Shown in pieces: positions 33,459 through 41,471 of a DNA stretch of 52,355 nucleotides. The stretch comes from an uncultured Bacteroidales bacterium (GTDB taxonomy: Bacteria; Bacteroidota; Bacteroidia; Bacteroidales; UBA932): assembly GCA_944326315.1 (NCBI GenBank), contig CALVDP010000012.1:1-52355 (forward strand), written 5' to 3'. Each line of letters opens with the position of its first letter. Within the stretch, counting starts at the first letter, position 1. The position numbers were made by a program, and so were the translations under genes. Below the pieces are notes generated by a model. The model saw only the letters and a list, made by a program, of their open reading frames with translations. It searched no databases and had not been told where the DNA came from.

Positions 33459-33506
33459 ACAACAAACACAACAACAAACACAACAACAAACACAACAACA
33501 AACACC
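33459..33506 (+). repeat. Four tandem 12-bp repeats (ACAACAAACACA) in a 5' leader
   Basis: Three perfect copies of ACAACAAACACA and a fourth with one change (final A to C) run without interruption from 33459 to 33506. The array ends 8 bp before the ATG of the SGNH hydrolase gene. It contains no G or T on the plus strand, so it would make an unstructured A/C-only leader, a context that favours ribosome access in a phylum that does not rely on Shine-Dalgarno sites. Copy number could vary by replication slippage. Confidence 0.9.
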
Positions 33507-33514
33507 ACATTCCG

Positions 33515-34603
33515 ATGAAGCACTTTATAACTGTAGCCTTGCTGACGGCATGCCTGTCTGCAGCTGCGCAGACGGGAGGCAACGGGGACTTCTCCTTTAC
33601 CGAAGCTTCCGAACTCAACCTGACAGGCAAGATATTGCCGGACACTCCGAATCCGTACCACCGGGTAGATACATGCGTGTACAAAGGCTTCACCTCAGGA
33701 GAGAACGAGCAAGTGAGATGCTCCGCCGGACTCGCCGTGCTTTTCAGGACCGATTCGCCGGTGATATCCGTGAAGGCCGAATACGGGTACTACAACACGG
33801 CTCCGAACACCATGGGTATCGCCCTCCGGGGCTTCGACCTGTATATCAGGAAAGACGGAGTGTGGACATATGCCGCATCCAAAGTAGGGAATCCGACCAG
33901 GCCGGACGATAACATCGTGCTTATAAACGGCATGGACGACAGCGTCAAGGAATGCATGCTGTACCTTCCGATATACAGCGAGATGTATTCTGTGAAAATC
34001 GGGGTGACAAGCGGCTCCATGATCGAGAGTCTTGCATCCCCGTTCAGGCACAGGATAGCCATATTCGGCTCCAGCTTTACCCAGGGTATAAGCATCAGCC
34101 GTCCCGGCATGTCTTACCCAATGCAGTTCATGAGGGACACAGGGCTTCAGATACTCAGCCTGGGATGCAGCGGGAACTGCAAGATGCAGCCATATTTCGC
34201 AGATGTGCTTGCGGATGTGCAGGCTGACGCCTTCCTGTTCGACGCCTTTTCGAATCCCGATGCTACAATGATACAGGAACGGCTTTTCCCTTTCATAGAA
34301 AGGATGCGTGAGGCACACCCAGGCATTCCGCTCATATTCATGCAGACGATATACCGCGAAAGCAGGAACTTCAGCCTGACGAACGACATGAAGGAACAGG
34401 CCAAGATGGACATGGCGGCAAAACTGATGGCAGAAGCCGTCCGGAAATACGATGACGTCTATTTCATCATACCTGACACCGGAGACGATGCACGGGAAAG
34501 TTCCGTGGACGGCACTCATCCTTCCGATATGGGGTACATGGCCTGGGCTCGGTCTATCGAAAAGCCGGTATTGAAAATCCTGAAAAAATACGGAATCAGA
34601 TAA
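33515..34603 (+). CDS. Secreted SGNH/GDSL hydrolase with GxDLY N-terminal domain
   Basis: This 362-residue exported esterase/acylhydrolase candidate has a signal peptide MKHFITVALLTACLSAAAQ. The N-terminal beta domain carries the GFDLY motif (about 109-113) that defines the GxDLY family, found before SGNH domains. The catalytic domain (about 175-360) has FGSSFTQG (Ser 187 by position), GCSGNCKM, and the terminal D332-x-x-H335 of DGTHPSD. The usual GDS block reads GSS here. Such proteins probably remove ester groups such as acetyl from glycans, but the substrate is unknown. It is a single gene, divergent from bcp and convergent with rnr, whose stop is adjacent. Confidence 0.88.
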   Translation: MKHFITVALLTACLSAAAQTGGNGDFSFTEASELNLTGKILPDTPNPYHRVDTCVYKGFTSGENEQVRCSAGLAVLFRTDSPVISVKAEYGYYNTAPNTMGIALRGFDLYIRKDGVWTYAASKVGNPTRPDDNIVLINGMDDSVKECMLYLPIYSEMYSVKIGVTSGSMIESLASPFRHRIAIFGSSFTQGISISRPGMSYPMQFMRDTGLQILSLGCSGNCKMQPYFADVLADVQADAFLFDAFSNPDATMIQERLFPFIERMREAHPGIPLIFMQTIYRESRNFSLTNDMKEQAKMDMAAKLMAEAVRKYDDVYFIIPDTGDDARESSVDGTHPSDMGYMAWARSIEKPVLKILKKYGIR

Positions 34604-36943
34604 TCATTTCTTCATTCGGGCCTTGCGTTTTTTTGAGGCCTTGATATCATTGCGGATCTTTTCCTTACGCGCTGCCTTACGGGCGGCGCGCTCCGTTTTC
34701 ACGGCATCCATATCCTGATCGTCAAGCTTCTCCTCAAGCCCCGTCTCTACAAGTTCGTAGTCAAGCAGCTTCTGTTCGAGATTCGCCTTCTTCACACGGA
34801 TCTTCACCGGGTCGCCGAGATTGTAAACGGTCTTTGAGCTGCGGCCCACGATCCGGTACCGTTCCTCGTCGAATTCATAGAAATCTGACCTGATATCTCT
34901 CAGAGCCACCATGCCCTCGATCTTCGTCGGCTCGATCTCGACATACATACCCCAGTCGGTCAGTCCGGATATGTGCCCCTCGAACTCATATCCCACCTTG
35001 TCCTGCATGAATTCCACAAGCTTGTACTTCACGCTCGAGCGCTCCGCTTCGGCTGCGACGACTTCCCTTTCGGACGCATACTTGCAGAGACCCTCGTAAT
35101 AGTCCTTTTTCTGCGACGGTGCCCCGTCAAGATACATGGCGAGAAGCCTGTGCACCATCATGTCCGGATACCGTCTGATCGGAGAGGTGAAATGAGTGTA
35201 ATACTTGAATGCCAGCCCGTAATGTCCGATATTGTCCGTACTGTAACGGGCCTTGGCCATTGTCCTCAGCGACAGTAGTTCGATAGCGTTGAACTCAGGC
35301 TTGTCCTTGGCCTCGGAGAAAAGATGATTCAACTCCTTGGATATCTCCTTGCCATTGTTCATCTGGCCGAGGGTATAGCCGAAATTCCCGACAAAACCGC
35401 GAAGATTCTCCAGCTTGTCCTGGTTCGGCTCGTCATGTATCCTGTATACAAATGTCTTGGCGGCGGATTTCCGGCCCTTGCCGCAAGCCTCCTTGCAGTT
35501 TGTGGCGACGAACTCTGCCACGCAGCGGTTTGCAAGCAGCATGAATTCTTCTATGAGCCAGTTGGCTTCCCTGGTCACCTTCTGGTATACATTTATCGGG
35601 CGCCCTTTCTCATCCACTTCCACCTTCATCTCAGGACGCTCGAAGCTGATCGCTCCGGATGCAAAACGTCTCTTCCTGAATTTGGATGCAAGCGAATGGA
35701 GGGTGAGAAGCGCTTCCTTGATGCTGTCCGGGACCGGTTTTTCCTGGCCTTCCAGGCCGAATGCATAGGAGTTCTTCATTGCAGTCTTGCCGTCATCAAG
35801 TATTTCCTGGGCATTCTCATACGCAAACCTGTAATCCGACTTGATGACTGTCCTGCCGAACCACCGTGCGTCCACCCTTGCAAGCGGAGTGATCTCGAAA
35901 ACGGCGGAAAAGCAGAGCTTCTCCTCATCAGGACGCAGAGAGCACAGCTTGTTGGACAACTTCTCCGGAAGCATCGGCACTGTCCTGTCCACAAGGTAGA
36001 CGGAAGTACCTCTGTTCCTGGCCTCCTCATCCACGACAGTTCCCGGTTTCACATAATATGTGACATCTGCTATGTGTACGCCGACCTCGTAATTGCCGTT
36101 GTCCAGTTTCCTGAAAGACAGTGCATCGTCAAAATCCTTGGCATCTGCAGGGTCAATGGTGAATGTCGTGACTCCTCTGAAATCACGCCTGCCCTTGAGG
36201 TCTTTCTCTGTTATCTTGTCCGATATGGCATCTGCAGCATTCTCCACTTCCGGCTCGAAGCGGTAAGGAAGGGAGTATTCTGCAAGTATGGCATGCATCT
36301 CGGTGTCATTCTCTCCCGGCTCGCCAAGGACATCCACCAGGTGGCCAACAGGTGCAGGTTCGTTCTTCTCCCAATGGTCCACAAGGGCGGCGACTTTCAT
36401 ACCGGCCTTCGCGGAAAGCTCTTTTCTGGCATTGTCCACAGTCTCGTAGACTCCCACGACAGAATAGCTTCCGTCTCCCATTTTCTTCAGGGAGCCTGTC
36501 CTGTCCGGCATTTCTTCCGGATTCCCGGTGCATCCGATGCGCTGCTTCCTGTTCTTGAATCCTACAGGAGCCGCCCCGATGACAGGAATGACAATATCGT
36601 AAGGCATCACCCGGCTTTCCATGAGCACCCAGGCCTGGTCACCGACAATATGCAGGATACCGACAAATGGCTTGCGGGAACGTTCCACGATTTCGACTAC
36701 CACGCCTTCGCGTCTCTGCCGGTCTGTCTTCTCCCGGGTCACAGAGACCTTGACGATATCCCCGTTGAGTGCGCCGTGTGTCTTGGAGGCCTTGACGAAG
36801 ACGTCGTCGTCCTCTCCGTCCACTATCACGAAAATATAGCCTTCCCTTGTCATCTGCACCTTTCCCGTAAGGACCGGTGCCGGCTTTTTCTCTTTCTTTT
36901 CCTTCTTTTCTCCCCTGTTTCTTCTACGGTTCCTGTCAGCCAT
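34604..36943 (-). CDS. rnr: Ribonuclease R
   Basis: This 779-residue 3'-to-5' exoribonuclease degrades structured RNA and acts in RNA quality control. The order is typical: a basic N-terminal tail (NRRRNRGEKKEKKEKKPA), two cold-shock domains (about 25-220), the RNB catalytic domain (from about 250, with metal-binding aspartates in DPADAKDFDDA at 264-274), an S1 domain (about 640-725, EGHISGLTDWGMYVEIEP), and a Lys-rich C-terminal tail. It reads away from gpmI across a 629-bp region filled by the promoter-like repeat array. I see no clear promoter for rnr itself there. Its stop abuts that of the convergent SGNH gene. Confidence 0.95.
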   Translation of the reverse strand: MADRNRRRNRGEKKEKKEKKPAPVLTGKVQMTREGYIFVIVDGEDDDVFVKASKTHGALNGDIVKVSVTREKTDRQRREGVVVEIVERSRKPFVGILHIVGDQAWVLMESRVMPYDIVIPVIGAAPVGFKNRKQRIGCTGNPEEMPDRTGSLKKMGDGSYSVVGVYETVDNARKELSAKAGMKVAALVDHWEKNEPAPVGHLVDVLGEPGENDTEMHAILAEYSLPYRFEPEVENAADAISDKITEKDLKGRRDFRGVTTFTIDPADAKDFDDALSFRKLDNGNYEVGVHIADVTYYVKPGTVVDEEARNRGTSVYLVDRTVPMLPEKLSNKLCSLRPDEEKLCFSAVFEITPLARVDARWFGRTVIKSDYRFAYENAQEILDDGKTAMKNSYAFGLEGQEKPVPDSIKEALLTLHSLASKFRKRRFASGAISFERPEMKVEVDEKGRPINVYQKVTREANWLIEEFMLLANRCVAEFVATNCKEACGKGRKSAAKTFVYRIHDEPNQDKLENLRGFVGNFGYTLGQMNNGKEISKELNHLFSEAKDKPEFNAIELLSLRTMAKARYSTDNIGHYGLAFKYYTHFTSPIRRYPDMMVHRLLAMYLDGAPSQKKDYYEGLCKYASEREVVAAEAERSSVKYKLVEFMQDKVGYEFEGHISGLTDWGMYVEIEPTKIEGMVALRDIRSDFYEFDEERYRIVGRSSKTVYNLGDPVKIRVKKANLEQKLLDYELVETGLEEKLDDQDMDAVKTERAARKAARKEKIRNDIKASKKRKARMKK

Positions 36944-36996
36944 AATCTGATATTTTAATTCTGCTATCCTTTATTCGTCGTCTTCCGGGAAGTGGC

Positions 36997-37490
36997 CCGG
37001 TCGCGGTGGCGCCTCCTTTGGCAAGCTCTCGGCTTCTGCGATATTTGGCTTCGCCACATATACTGTTGCGCTTCGGCAATTGCAAGCAAGCTTGCATTGC
37101 ACTCAGCTTCTGCGATATTTGGCCTGCGGCCACATATCCGGTGGCGCCTCCTTTGGCAAGCTCTCGGCTTCTGTGATATTTGGCCTGCGGCCACATATCC
37201 GGTGGCGCCTCCTTTGGCAAGCTCTCGGCTTCTGCGATATTTGGCCTGCGGCCACATATCCTGTTGCGCCTCGGCAATGCAAATCAAACAAGTTTGTTTG
37301 CATTGCTCTCGGCTTCTGCGATATTTGGCCTGCGGCCACATATCCTGTTGCGCCTCGGCAATTGCAAATTGAACAAGTTCATTTGCATTGCTCTCGGCTT
37401 CTGTGTATATTTAACCTTCGGCTACATATACTGTATCGCCTCGGCAGAGCAAATAAATTTGCTCTGCTCTCGGCTTCTGCGTATATTTGC
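36997..37490 (+). repeat. Seven-unit promoter-like tandem repeat array with paired hairpins
   Basis: Seven imperfect units lie between rnr and gpmI. Each has CTCGGCTTCTG(C/T)G followed by (G/T)ATATTTG; these -7-like octamers start at 37040, 37114, 37175, 37236, 37320, 37406 and 37482 (the sixth ends in A). A TTTG (CTTG in unit 2) precedes each by exactly 19 bp in units 1-5 and 20 bp in units 6-7. The starts are 74, 61, 61, 84, 86 and 76 bp apart. After the -7 element most units have the hairpin TGGCC-TGC-GGCCA. Units 2, 5, 6 and 7 have a second, variable hairpin before it; units 1, 3 and 4 have a short form (GCCTCCTTTGGCAAG). It is open in several frames on both strands but is not coding. Confidence 0.9.
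37458..37489 (+). promoter_or_regulatory. Consensus promoter for gpmI (last unit of the array)
   Basis: TTTG at 37458-37461, 20 bp, then TATATTTG at 37482-37489 is a full match to the Bacteroidota consensus. The -33 TTTG is part of the right arm of a perfect 11-bp stem (GCAGAGCAAAT / ATTTGCTCTGC). Transcription would start near 37495, with a leader of about 78 nt before the ATG at 37573. Confidence 0.65.
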
Positions 37491-37499
37491 AGATTGCAT

Positions 37500-37527
37500 G
37501 CAAATTTAGCAATTATTGCTTATTTGC
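37500..37527 (+). promoter_or_regulatory. Leader hairpin of gpmI
   Basis: GCAAAT (37500-37505) pairs with ATTTGC (37522-37527), and inside it AGCAAT (37508-37513) pairs with ATTGCT (37515-37520). A second, competing pairing joins ATTTGCA at 37485-37491 to TGCAAAT at 37499-37505. The two structures share 37500-37505 and are mutually exclusive, which would suit a switch or attenuator, though no ligand or terminator is evident. Confidence 0.4.
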
Positions 37528-37572
37528 AAGCGCATGTCGGATAAAGATTATAGTCAATTAATACATTGTAAC

Positions 37573-39090
37573 ATGGACAGAAAAGTTCTTCTGATGATCC
37601 TCGACGGATGGGGCGAGGGCAGACACGACTGGACGAACGCCATTTATACCCAGGGCGCTCCTTATATCGATTCTCTGAGGGAAAAATACCCTTACGGACA
37701 TCTCCAGGCCTGCGGAGAGTATGTCGGGCTTCCTGACGGACAGATGGGCAACTCCGAAGTGGGTCACCTGAATCTCGGGGCCGGACGCGTGGTATATCAG
37801 GACCTGGTGAAAATCAACATGGCATGCAGGGAGCACAAGCTGCTTGACAACCCTGAGATCAAGGCGGCATACGACTATGTGGCCAAGACAGGGAAACAGC
37901 TCCACTTCATGGGACTTGCCTCAATGGGCGGTGTCCACAGCTCGCTTGCCCATGTATATGAGTTCCTTTCCGTAGCCAGACAGTACGGTCTTGACAAGGT
38001 ATTCGTACACTGCTTCATGGACGGCAGGGACACTGACCCGAGAAGCGGCAAGGGCTTCGTGGAAGAACTTGAGAAGAAAATGGCCGAAACGACAGGCAAG
38101 GTCGCTTCAGTATGCGGACGCTACTATGCGATGGACAGGGACAAGAGATGGGAGAGAGTCAAACTTGCATACGACCTGCTCGTCAAGGGAGAAGGCGCCA
38201 GGTTCTCTTCTGCTGCAGAAGGCATCGAGGCATCATACAACGAAGGTGTAACTGACGAATTCATCAAGCCTATAAGCATAACAGGGGCCGACGGGAAGCC
38301 TGTAGGGACAATCCAGGAAGGCGATGCAGTGATATTCTTCAACTTCCGCAATGACAGGGCGCGCGAGATCACTGCTGTCCTGACACAGGAAGACATGCCG
38401 GACTACGGAATGAAGACACTGCCTCTGTACTTCTGCTGCTTCACCCCTTATGACGACAAGTTCCAGGGCGTCCATATCCTCTTCAACAAGGAAAATGTCC
38501 AGGACACCCTCGGCGAGACCGTAGCCAAGGCCGGCAAACGACAGCTGAGGATTGCCGAGACTGAGAAATACGCCCATGTCACATTCTTCTTCAACGGAGG
38601 ACGTGAAGACCAGTTCGAAAACGAGGACAGGATACTGGTCAAGTCACCGAAGGTCCCTACCTATGACCTCCTTCCGGAAATGAGTGCACAGGAAGTCACC
38701 GAGAAGCTTACGGAAGTCCTCAAGACAGGCAAGGAAGACATGGTGATACTGAATTTCGCCAACGGCGACATGGTCGGACATACAGGAGTGTTCTCCGCCA
38801 TCTGCCGTGCCGTAGCCAAGATAGACAAATGCGTGAAGGAAGTGGTCGAGACCGCCATTGCCAATGATTATGTCGTGCTTCTGACCGCTGACCACGGCAA
38901 TGCAGACCATGCATACAACGATGACGGCACCCCGAACACGGCACATTCGCTCAATACCGTGCAGTTCATCGTCATCAATGCAGGTGTAGAACATGTGAAG
39001 GACGGCAAGCTCGCCGACGTGGCCCCTACCATCCTCAAACTCATGGGAATACCTCAGCCGGCTGCCATGACAGGAGAGCCGCTGATCTGA
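37573..39090 (+). CDS. gpmI: Phosphoglycerate mutase, 2,3-bisphosphoglycerate-independent
   Basis: This 505-residue (from the ATG at 37573) manganese-dependent glycolytic enzyme interconverts 3- and 2-phosphoglycerate through a phosphoserine. The metal and phosphoserine motifs are present: [12 protein letters not shown] at the N-terminus, the active serine S61 in [19 protein letters not shown], and the C-terminal [12 protein letters not shown]. An in-frame upstream ATG at 37516 lies inside the probable leader and would add residues unlike the family, so I prefer 37573. It is preceded by the repeat array and followed after 79 bp, including a GC-rich hairpin, by a ROK kinase gene. Confidence 0.95.
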
Positions 39091-41288: not shown

Positions 41289-41415
41289 GAGGGTGACTCA
41301 AAAGTGACTTTTGGTCACCCTCAAACGTCTTTCTTCGAAAGACTGGACCCATCCTAACCCCCTGTACCCCCTATTAGGGGGATATCGCTTCCTCCGGTCG
41401 CGGTCCCTTCGGGAC
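41289..41415. repeat. Cluster of four hairpins between manA and the M3 peptidase gene
   Basis: Four stems lie in a row: GAGGGTGACTCAAAAGT / ACTTTTGGTCACCCTC (41289-41322, one bulge), GTCTTTC-TTC-GAAAGAC (41327-41343), CCCCCT-ATT-AGGGGG (41367-41381) and GTCCC-TTC-GGGAC (41403-41415). The first could terminate manA and, from the other side, the minus-strand peptidase gene. The rest exceeds what a terminator needs and looks like a small dispersed element. No coding sequence is seen in 41266-41471. Confidence 0.6.
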
Positions 41416-41471
41416 TTTTGACTCGCCCCCATTTTGTATTTATGTCCATCCGCAAGGATTACCACTCTGGA

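Follow-up and report, generated by a model that had tools for sequence, protein, structure and literature searches.

A dispersed promoter-type repeat forms a seven-unit array upstream of a gpmI-like gene in an uncultured Bacteroidales bacterium

The intergenic region between an rnr-like and a gpmI-like gene of an uncultured Bacteroidales bacterium (UBA932) harbors seven promoter-like units that repeat far beyond chance. The array is probably built from tandem copies of a DNA repeat that is dispersed, non-autonomous and promoter-bearing and that inserts at the -7 boxes of promoters and amplifies in tandem. This repeat appears to have lodged where ordinary genes have their start signals and, as far as sequence can tell, the last copy of an array probably now drives the gene. 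The DNA analyzed, called the window below, is the 52,355-nt contig CALVDP010000012.1 of assembly GCA_944326315.1. A first-pass annotation of the window had offered several interpretations of the units, which are partly supported overall; those of a mobile promoter repeat or of the amplification of a promoter module fit best, given the dispersed copies, the array-free sites in relatives and the promoter-type last units.

The array upstream of gpmI and its unit

The gene downstream of the array is presumably gpmI, and its divergent neighbor is presumably RNase R-like (Table 1). The first-pass annotation had listed seven octamers, each with an upstream TTTG or CTTG, and both are real: five octamers read GATATTTG, one TATATTTA and one TATATTTG, and the upstream motif (TTTG, CTTG in unit 2) is located at 19 bp in units 1–5 and at 20 bp in units 6 and 7. 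Its description of the last unit as a perfect consensus promoter also holds, unit 7 alone being an exact match to TTTG-N19/21-TAnnTTTG within the array. The octamer-to-octamer periods obtained from the coordinates are 74, 61, 61, 84, 86 and 76, and TRF reported two overlapping rows on the array with scores of 314 and 352. The constant -33/-7 spacing lies within the repeated core CTCGGCTTCTGNG and its flank, which indicates that the spacing was copied along with the repeat.

Table 1. Features of the rnr-gpmI intergenic region and its two flanking genes (positions in the window)
Feature	Position	Strand	Detail
RNase R-like gene	34604..36943	-	divergent from gpmI
Seven-unit array	36997..37489	+	rnr-gpmI intergenic region, oriented to gpmI
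Unit 1: -7-like GATATTTG and palindrome A	37040..37063	+	-33-like TTTG 37017-37020, 19 bp
Palindrome B ahead of unit 2, GCAATTGCAAGCAAGCTTGCATTGC	37076..37100	+	CTTG within right arm
Unit 2: GATATTTG and palindrome A	37114..37138	+	
Unit 3: GATATTTG and palindrome A	37175..37199	+	short linker before, without palindrome B; TTTG 37152-37155
Unit 4: GATATTTG and palindrome A	37236..37260	+	short linker before, without palindrome B; TTTG 37213-37216
Palindrome B ahead of unit 5, 33 nt	37274..37306	+	TTTG within right arm
Unit 5: GATATTTG and palindrome A	37320..37344	+	
Palindrome B ahead of unit 6, 34 nt	37358..37391	+	TTTG within right arm
Unit 6: TATATTTA (differs at last -7 base) and palindrome A	37405..37431	+	octamer at 37406
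Palindrome B ahead of unit 7, GCAGAGCAAATAAATTTGCTCTGC	37444..37467	+	
Gene-proximal promoter-like site (unit 7): TTTG, 20 bp, TATATTTG	37458..37489	+	octamer at 37482
gpmI, phosphoglycerate mutase-like, downstream of array	37573..39090	+	start codon consistent with orthologues

The gpmI modules are one array of a repeat that is scattered through the genome. Its 20-mer core CTCGGCTTCTGNGATATTTG occurs in 26 copies (none for the reversed-pattern control) and CTCGGCTTCTGNG in 69 copies, whereas 36 genomes of the same genus have 0–3 each; in one of these, G029, the copies are real. As repeats break assemblies, these copy numbers are lower bounds. The window and 39 stretches of this genome around repeat matches yielded 92 unit cores (L045 gave no core with the pattern used). 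Read from one -7 box to the next, a unit comprises palindrome A, a conserved arm with a consensus of about CTGTTGCGCCTCGG, an optional palindrome B, the spacer CTCGGCTTCTGCG and the next -7 box. The left arm of palindrome A is the upstream -7 box itself (for example GATATTTGGC-ttc-GCCACATATC and GTATATTTGAC-ttc-GTCATTTATAC) and the right arm of palindrome B contains the -33 TTTG. Cores inside the arrays of this genome are 56–88 nt apart (50 intervals), and reading of the arrays revealed identical successive units, which shows that tandem duplication contributes.

Other repeats and breaks were seen around the arrays. Two pairs of contig ends (L040 end and L042 start; L030 end and L032 end) look as though one array had been split between them. 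The arrays of this genome often have at their left edge a second interspersed repeat, which is CCCCCTATTAGGGGGATCTCGCTCCCTCCGGTCGCGGTCCCTTCGGGACTTTT or its right half; it lies about 86–132 nt ahead of the first core in L012, L013, L019, L022, L024 and L031 and 206 nt ahead of it in L011, has two copies inside L027, and also occurs without an array once in the window (41336-41430) and once in L021. Additionally, a tandem repeat of ACAACAAACACA with 4.2 copies occupies positions 33459-33509 of the window, just ahead of an ORF at 33515.

Distribution of the family and the question of a transposase

With a 90-nt unit as query, the same family was found in 6 of 61 same-genus genomes, and arrays from five of the six carriers have the anatomy described above, with units as long as 118 nt in relatives. 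The genus is probably Cryptobacteroides, because the transposase match of G451, the genome of L123 (Candidatus Cryptobacteroides faecipullorum), has the same position and score as that of G077, which belongs to the genus. When named genomes were scanned for a pattern, at least 117 stretches were returned; among the matches listed are Candidatus Cryptobacteroides, Merdivivens, Coprenecus, Egerieousia and Onthomorpha, as well as Muribaculum sp. An289 (named without a MAG label and so probably an isolate), a Muribaculaceae MAG, an Alistipes MAG, other Bacteroidales and one further bacterium. By inspection, a match in Gemmatimonadota (L205) is due to chance. The matches listed include 133 exact pattern matches, of which 128 have TTG immediately before. 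Moreover, 62 are preceded, at 60 nt or less, by the 8-nt right arm in inverted form with no more than one mismatch, a test that misses bulges and long inserts. Relatives of the repeat are patchy across gut Bacteroidales, since among 344 genomes of the order only two, this one and one of the same genus, contain CTCGGCTTNNNNNTATATTTG, in a sample that may miss other genera where the named-genome scan found it. A universal Bacteroidales promoter spacer is rejected on the same count. A plasmid, phage or viral origin is rejected as well, plasmid and phage records giving no match and viral contigs none to the exact pattern. In some species (L073, L098, L115, L130 and L147), long multi-hairpin inserts are found in the place of palindrome B.

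The repeat consists of short palindromes dispersed through intergenic DNA, which is also how REP and REPIN elements present themselves, partly in arrays, in the available portions of PMC3733652 and PMC6006769. It is conceivable but unlikely that a REP/REPIN-type element is moved here by a RAYT transposase, which would recognize the hairpins as single-stranded DNA and insert them beside a -7 box. One locus looked strong: in G029 a RAYT-like gene (L094, 2586-3458) is located between two two-unit arrays that are alike over 138 nt with six mismatches, and its protein matches NCBIfam REP_Tyr_transpos (E 1.1e-10, 41.5 bits, cut-off 80) and, below the cut-off, Pfam Y1_Tnp (4.7e-4). The distribution of RAYT genes does not follow the repeat, however. 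At E 1e-10 none was found in G000 (this genome), G065, G074 and G076, that is, in four of the six carriers including the three with most matches, yet RAYT is present in 67 of 81 genomes of the genus; no element core was seen in flanks of about 1.5 kb a side or less at 30 RAYT loci from carrier genomes, which are part of the matches listed; and 19 of the 42 genomes reached via element-holding loci have no RAYT. As the assemblies are incomplete, a RAYT may lie on a lost contig. In this genome neither Pfam family nor alignment returned a cognate RAYT, and no transposase for the repeat was identified. The RAYT/REP reading thus looked strong at L094 and failed on distribution, and the repeat is not assigned to this class. 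Bacteroidetes transposases of the RAYT kind are flanked by atypical structures according to the accessible part of PMC6006769, which keeps the idea conceivable; typical REP hairpins carry the foot tags GTAG or CGTC in what is available of PMC3733652. The present repeat further differs from REP/REPIN by a promoter lying in register within the unit. Further RAYT-like genes in the genus have direct repeats of their own on their flanks, palindromic in some cases (L289, L292, L294, L300, L302, L303, L306, L311 and L313).

Unit types, array ends and array-free sites

The 92 cores of this genome are divided into 56 of TATATTTG type, a class that includes TATATTTA, TATCTTTG and TATTTTTG, and 36 of GATATTTG. 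TTTG or CTTG is found at 20 bp from 55 of the 56 TATATTTG-type cores, whereas GATATTTG cores have it at 19 bp in 12 cases and nowhere at 18–22 bp in the other 24 (Fisher 3e-12 for unit type against -33 box, a guide only because the units are related by descent). The first-pass annotation had proposed to check whether genome copies keep TTTG 19–20 bp upstream; the TATATTTG type does and most GATATTTG units do not. Its suggestion of selection on promoter geometry, taken across all units, finds no support, given the same 24 cores, and the constant spacing at gpmI is not a general rule for upstream units.

Position within the array separates the two types. Promoter-type units occupy all 37 complete array ends and 19 of 50 inner units, the remaining 31 being GATATTTG (Fisher 9e-11, again only a guide given common descent of the units). 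These ends are the 42 "last" rows minus five GATATTTG rows that are not true ends, four of them stopping at contig ends (L019, L036, L040 and L031) and one being followed by a further unit (L027). All 37 have a box at 20 bp (23 TTTG and 14 CTTG), and their -7 box reads TAnnTTTG in 36 cases and TATATTTA in one. Such ends correspond to the Bacteroidota sigma-A type sequence (TTTG, 19–21 bp, TAnnTTTG), exactly so in unit 7; the two boxes are published for Bacteroides in the part of PMC7366714 at hand, and the spacer range was taken from the first-pass annotation. An ATG-initiated ORF of at least 80 aa starts within 160 nt downstream of every array end that has at least 300 nt of downstream sequence (35/35), compared to 2050 of 4000 positions drawn at random, a control that is lenient since ATGs inside genes are counted too. 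The first-pass annotation had held that copies in genes or at gene ends without orientation bias would argue against a promoter role; the opposite is seen, all scorable ends facing an ORF start. To judge from these patterns, the gene-proximal unit alone looks like a maintained promoter, and the feature kept would be a full promoter beside the gene.

The same data bear on a multi-start or RNA-polymerase-loading array, in which upstream TATATTTG units would fire as extra promoters and thereby raise or tune expression. In this genome 18 of the 19 inner TATATTTG-type units (TATATTTA counted) keep TTTG or CTTG at 20 bp, a geometry that is consensus-like for Bacteroides by the available text of PMC7366714. 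However, the 31 inner GATATTTG units mostly have no -33 box and many orthologous genes in relatives have no array, which makes such a function improbable as the reason for the arrays. The landing or decoy array and the multi-start tuner of the first-pass annotation are conceivable for the TATATTTG units.

The genes at the arrays include putative clpC-, tdk-, holA-, rsfS-, surE- and gpmI-like genes. For gpmI, a match was obtained in 65 of 81 genomes and 30 loci were taken; no core was found within 600 nt upstream of the gene in any of the 29 other genomes (one flank being partly masked and one 439 nt long; the gpmI start of G074 was left out). Four of these array-free loci belong to genomes in which the family occurs at other places (G065, G076, G029 and G077). 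For 14 other array genes, 36 promoters without an array towards the gene were collected from G065, G076, G074 and G077; L016 (poor orthologue identity), L013 and, by design, orthologues with arrays were left out. TAnnTTTG is located within 120 nt of the start codon in 31 of the 36 and absent in 5, compared to 100 of 4000 random window stretches and 18 of 36 for the opposite strand of the orthologous stretches; as these are AT-rich and often divergent, the count of 31 is soft when taken alone. Leader lengths correlate with those of this genome (Spearman 0.51, p 0.004, with rows that are not independent) and often differ. Element-like pieces within 300 nt on either strand occur in four of the 36 orthologues (L247, L246, L272 and L270), of which the first is the array of a divergent neighbor and the next two look like chance in coding sequence. 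The promoter at L282 may be a deletion scar. In G077 the promoter of tdk, which reads CATTTATACTATTGCGTATATTTG, looks from its sequence like a unit deleted between two GCG repeats.

The junctions are better evidence than the TAnnTTTG count. At the C46/C55 locus, which is split over these two contigs and for which G065 has an empty site with a single TATATTTG, homology on the left reaches the box, here degenerate as AATATTTC, and on the right restarts with TATATTTG. The rsfS promoter is filled in this genome and in G065 and empty in G074; in both filled genomes homology to the empty site extends on the left through GGATTTTGTTT and a degenerate copy of the -7 box, and on the right it is taken up again at that box, beginning with TATATTTG. 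Thus, at two loci (rsfS in two genomes), the array sits at a native -7 box with a box on both sides, the left copy being degenerate with respect to the empty site. This is not seen at the left junctions of tdk and gpmI. The right junction of tdk is sharp and the left one blurred, homology to the relative at gpmI is lost about 40 nt short of the array and regained only about 50 nt past it, and the ruvX array stops a little short of a native -7-like box, on its upstream side. Inspection additionally revealed seven arrays (L014, L017, L021, L025, L033, L046 and L047) whose left edge is a native-looking TATATTTG without the preceding CTCGGCTT.

A purely local origin, in which ordinary promoters are duplicated in tandem and undergo gene conversion but nothing is inserted, would account for the identical neighboring units and for the orthologous genes that have arrays in two or more species (rsfS, tdk, surE, a trxA-like gene, a prenyl synthase-like gene and the gene of L021), but it is very improbable given one 56–88-nt unit at dozens of unrelated promoters and array-free orthologues with other spacer sequences.

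For insertion at -7 boxes, we infer the following course. The target of a unit would be the -7 box in a housekeeping-type promoter that is already there; insertion would, as a general rule, leave a -7 box on both sides of the unit, so that the gene would be expressed from the promoter of the unit; more insertions at those boxes and unequal recombination would build tandem arrays; only the gene-proximal unit would stay selected as a promoter, and the upstream units would drift or belong to the GATATTTG subtype. This is the simplest account. Insertion together with amplification and relaxed upstream units would explain the fixed direction and the -7 boxes at both unit ends, and also the promoter-type last unit and the tolerated insertions before essential genes. 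Against it counts the spacer CTCGGCTTCTGCG, which is unlike the AT-rich promoter spacer of B. thetaiotaomicron given in the part of PMC7366714 consulted.

Palindromes, related elements and significance

The palindromes appear to matter as DNA. When the arms of palindrome B are compared to re-dealt arms, 7.59 vs 6.28 of 10 positions are complementary (maximum of 5000 shuffles 6.63; 105 distinct segments of 22–36 nt without a pairing filter), and the excess also holds separately in this genome, in relatives and in named contigs. An earlier shuffle test on the outer five pairs (154/280 vs a mean of 136.6 and a maximum of 156) was weak and included non-hairpin linkers. Mismatches comprise 20 G-T and 28 A-C; they were counted after a 70% pairing filter, which 96 of the 141 distinct segments passed. 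The B arms thus covary without an excess of G-T, pointing to DNA rather than RNA, and nothing favors RNA pairing on the gene strand. In palindrome A, 33 of 50 distinct stems have a Watson-Crick pair at the outermost position of the inner stem (17.0 on average and 27 at most after shuffling), while the second (34/50) and third (32/43) pairs equal the shuffle maximum; mismatches over the three pairs are 10 A-C and 5 G-T. In this genome an ATATC right arm accompanies 33 of the 36 GATATTTG units, and TATATTTG units have TATAC in 16 cases, ATATC in 7 and no clear arm in 33, mostly array ends. Elsewhere GATATTTG units keep TATAC (7/7 in relatives and 8/10 in named contigs), which makes the GATATTTG/ATATC compensation specific to this genome. 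Folded as single-stranded DNA, two of three units form both palindromes (z -3.3 and -4.7), and in the third, a short GATATTTG unit, a different hairpin replaces A (z -2.6).

A structured RNA leader, whose hairpins would work in transcripts begun upstream (stability or attenuation), could draw on the two units that form both palindromes, but it is very improbable and is rejected, since palindrome B lies upstream of the expected start of the last promoter and so would be untranscribed from it, the wobble excess is absent, the short unit forms another hairpin, and Rfam gave no match at gathering score for nine loci and, in E-value mode on window positions 36900-37600, a single one (E 3.8) far under the gathering score of its family.

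More tentatively, and with the odds rather against it, the insertion of units at -7 boxes might define a class of promoter-parasitic elements, in which hairpins would enter the -7 box as single-stranded DNA, perhaps when RNA polymerase has melted it. The box would be duplicated and a replacement promoter supplied in register, so that insertion at the promoters of essential genes would be harmless and arrays could grow.

Small intergenic repeats such as the Correia elements of Neisseria and the BOX elements of the pneumococcus can bring promoters or vary in module number; their hosts are unrelated to the present ones, and the likeness drawn here is one of description. Bacteroidales also possess invertible promoters, which are linked to inverted repeats; here palindromes A and B differ, and cores on both strands were found in 1 of 154 loci, in two separate arrays about 3.7 kb apart. 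Putative mobile promoters, promoter sequences that spread independently of genes, were reportedly described by Matus-Garcia (2012) and van Passel (2014). The concept of mobile promoters is already published, as cited in the available part of PMC8049555, and the present repeat is distinguished from it by a defined two-palindrome anatomy, arrays and a proposed -7 box target. The nearest described element found is the BrickBuilt MITE of Porphyromonas gingivalis (PMC4596501, accessible sections), which is likewise from Bacteroidales, always intergenic, composed of internal tandem repeats with promoter elements and devoid of a transposase of its own. According to the same sections, BrickBuilt has a 23-nt repeat between a leader and a tail, IS5-like terminal inverted repeats and possible transcription both ways, whereas the present repeat has 56–88-nt units (longer in relatives) delimited by -7 boxes and oriented to the gene; unit, ends and orientation therefore differ. 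By inspection, unit ends share a direct -7 box, and no terminal inverted repeat was seen. No paper describing the present repeat was found in open-licence PubMed Central, as judged by titles and abstract openings. Small, non-autonomous, promoter-bearing intergenic repeats are thus already known, and the -7 box as apparent target is the unusual feature.

Filled and empty promoter pairs within one genus give a test of this reading. If insertion at -7 boxes is true, the repeat would explain some of the contig breaks in carrier genomes, and many housekeeping promoters in a mostly uncultured group of gut Bacteroidales would have been taken over by a repeat that recognizes the -7 box. It would then offer a clear example of promoters that spread through genomes as parasites and that are tolerable because of the target they use.
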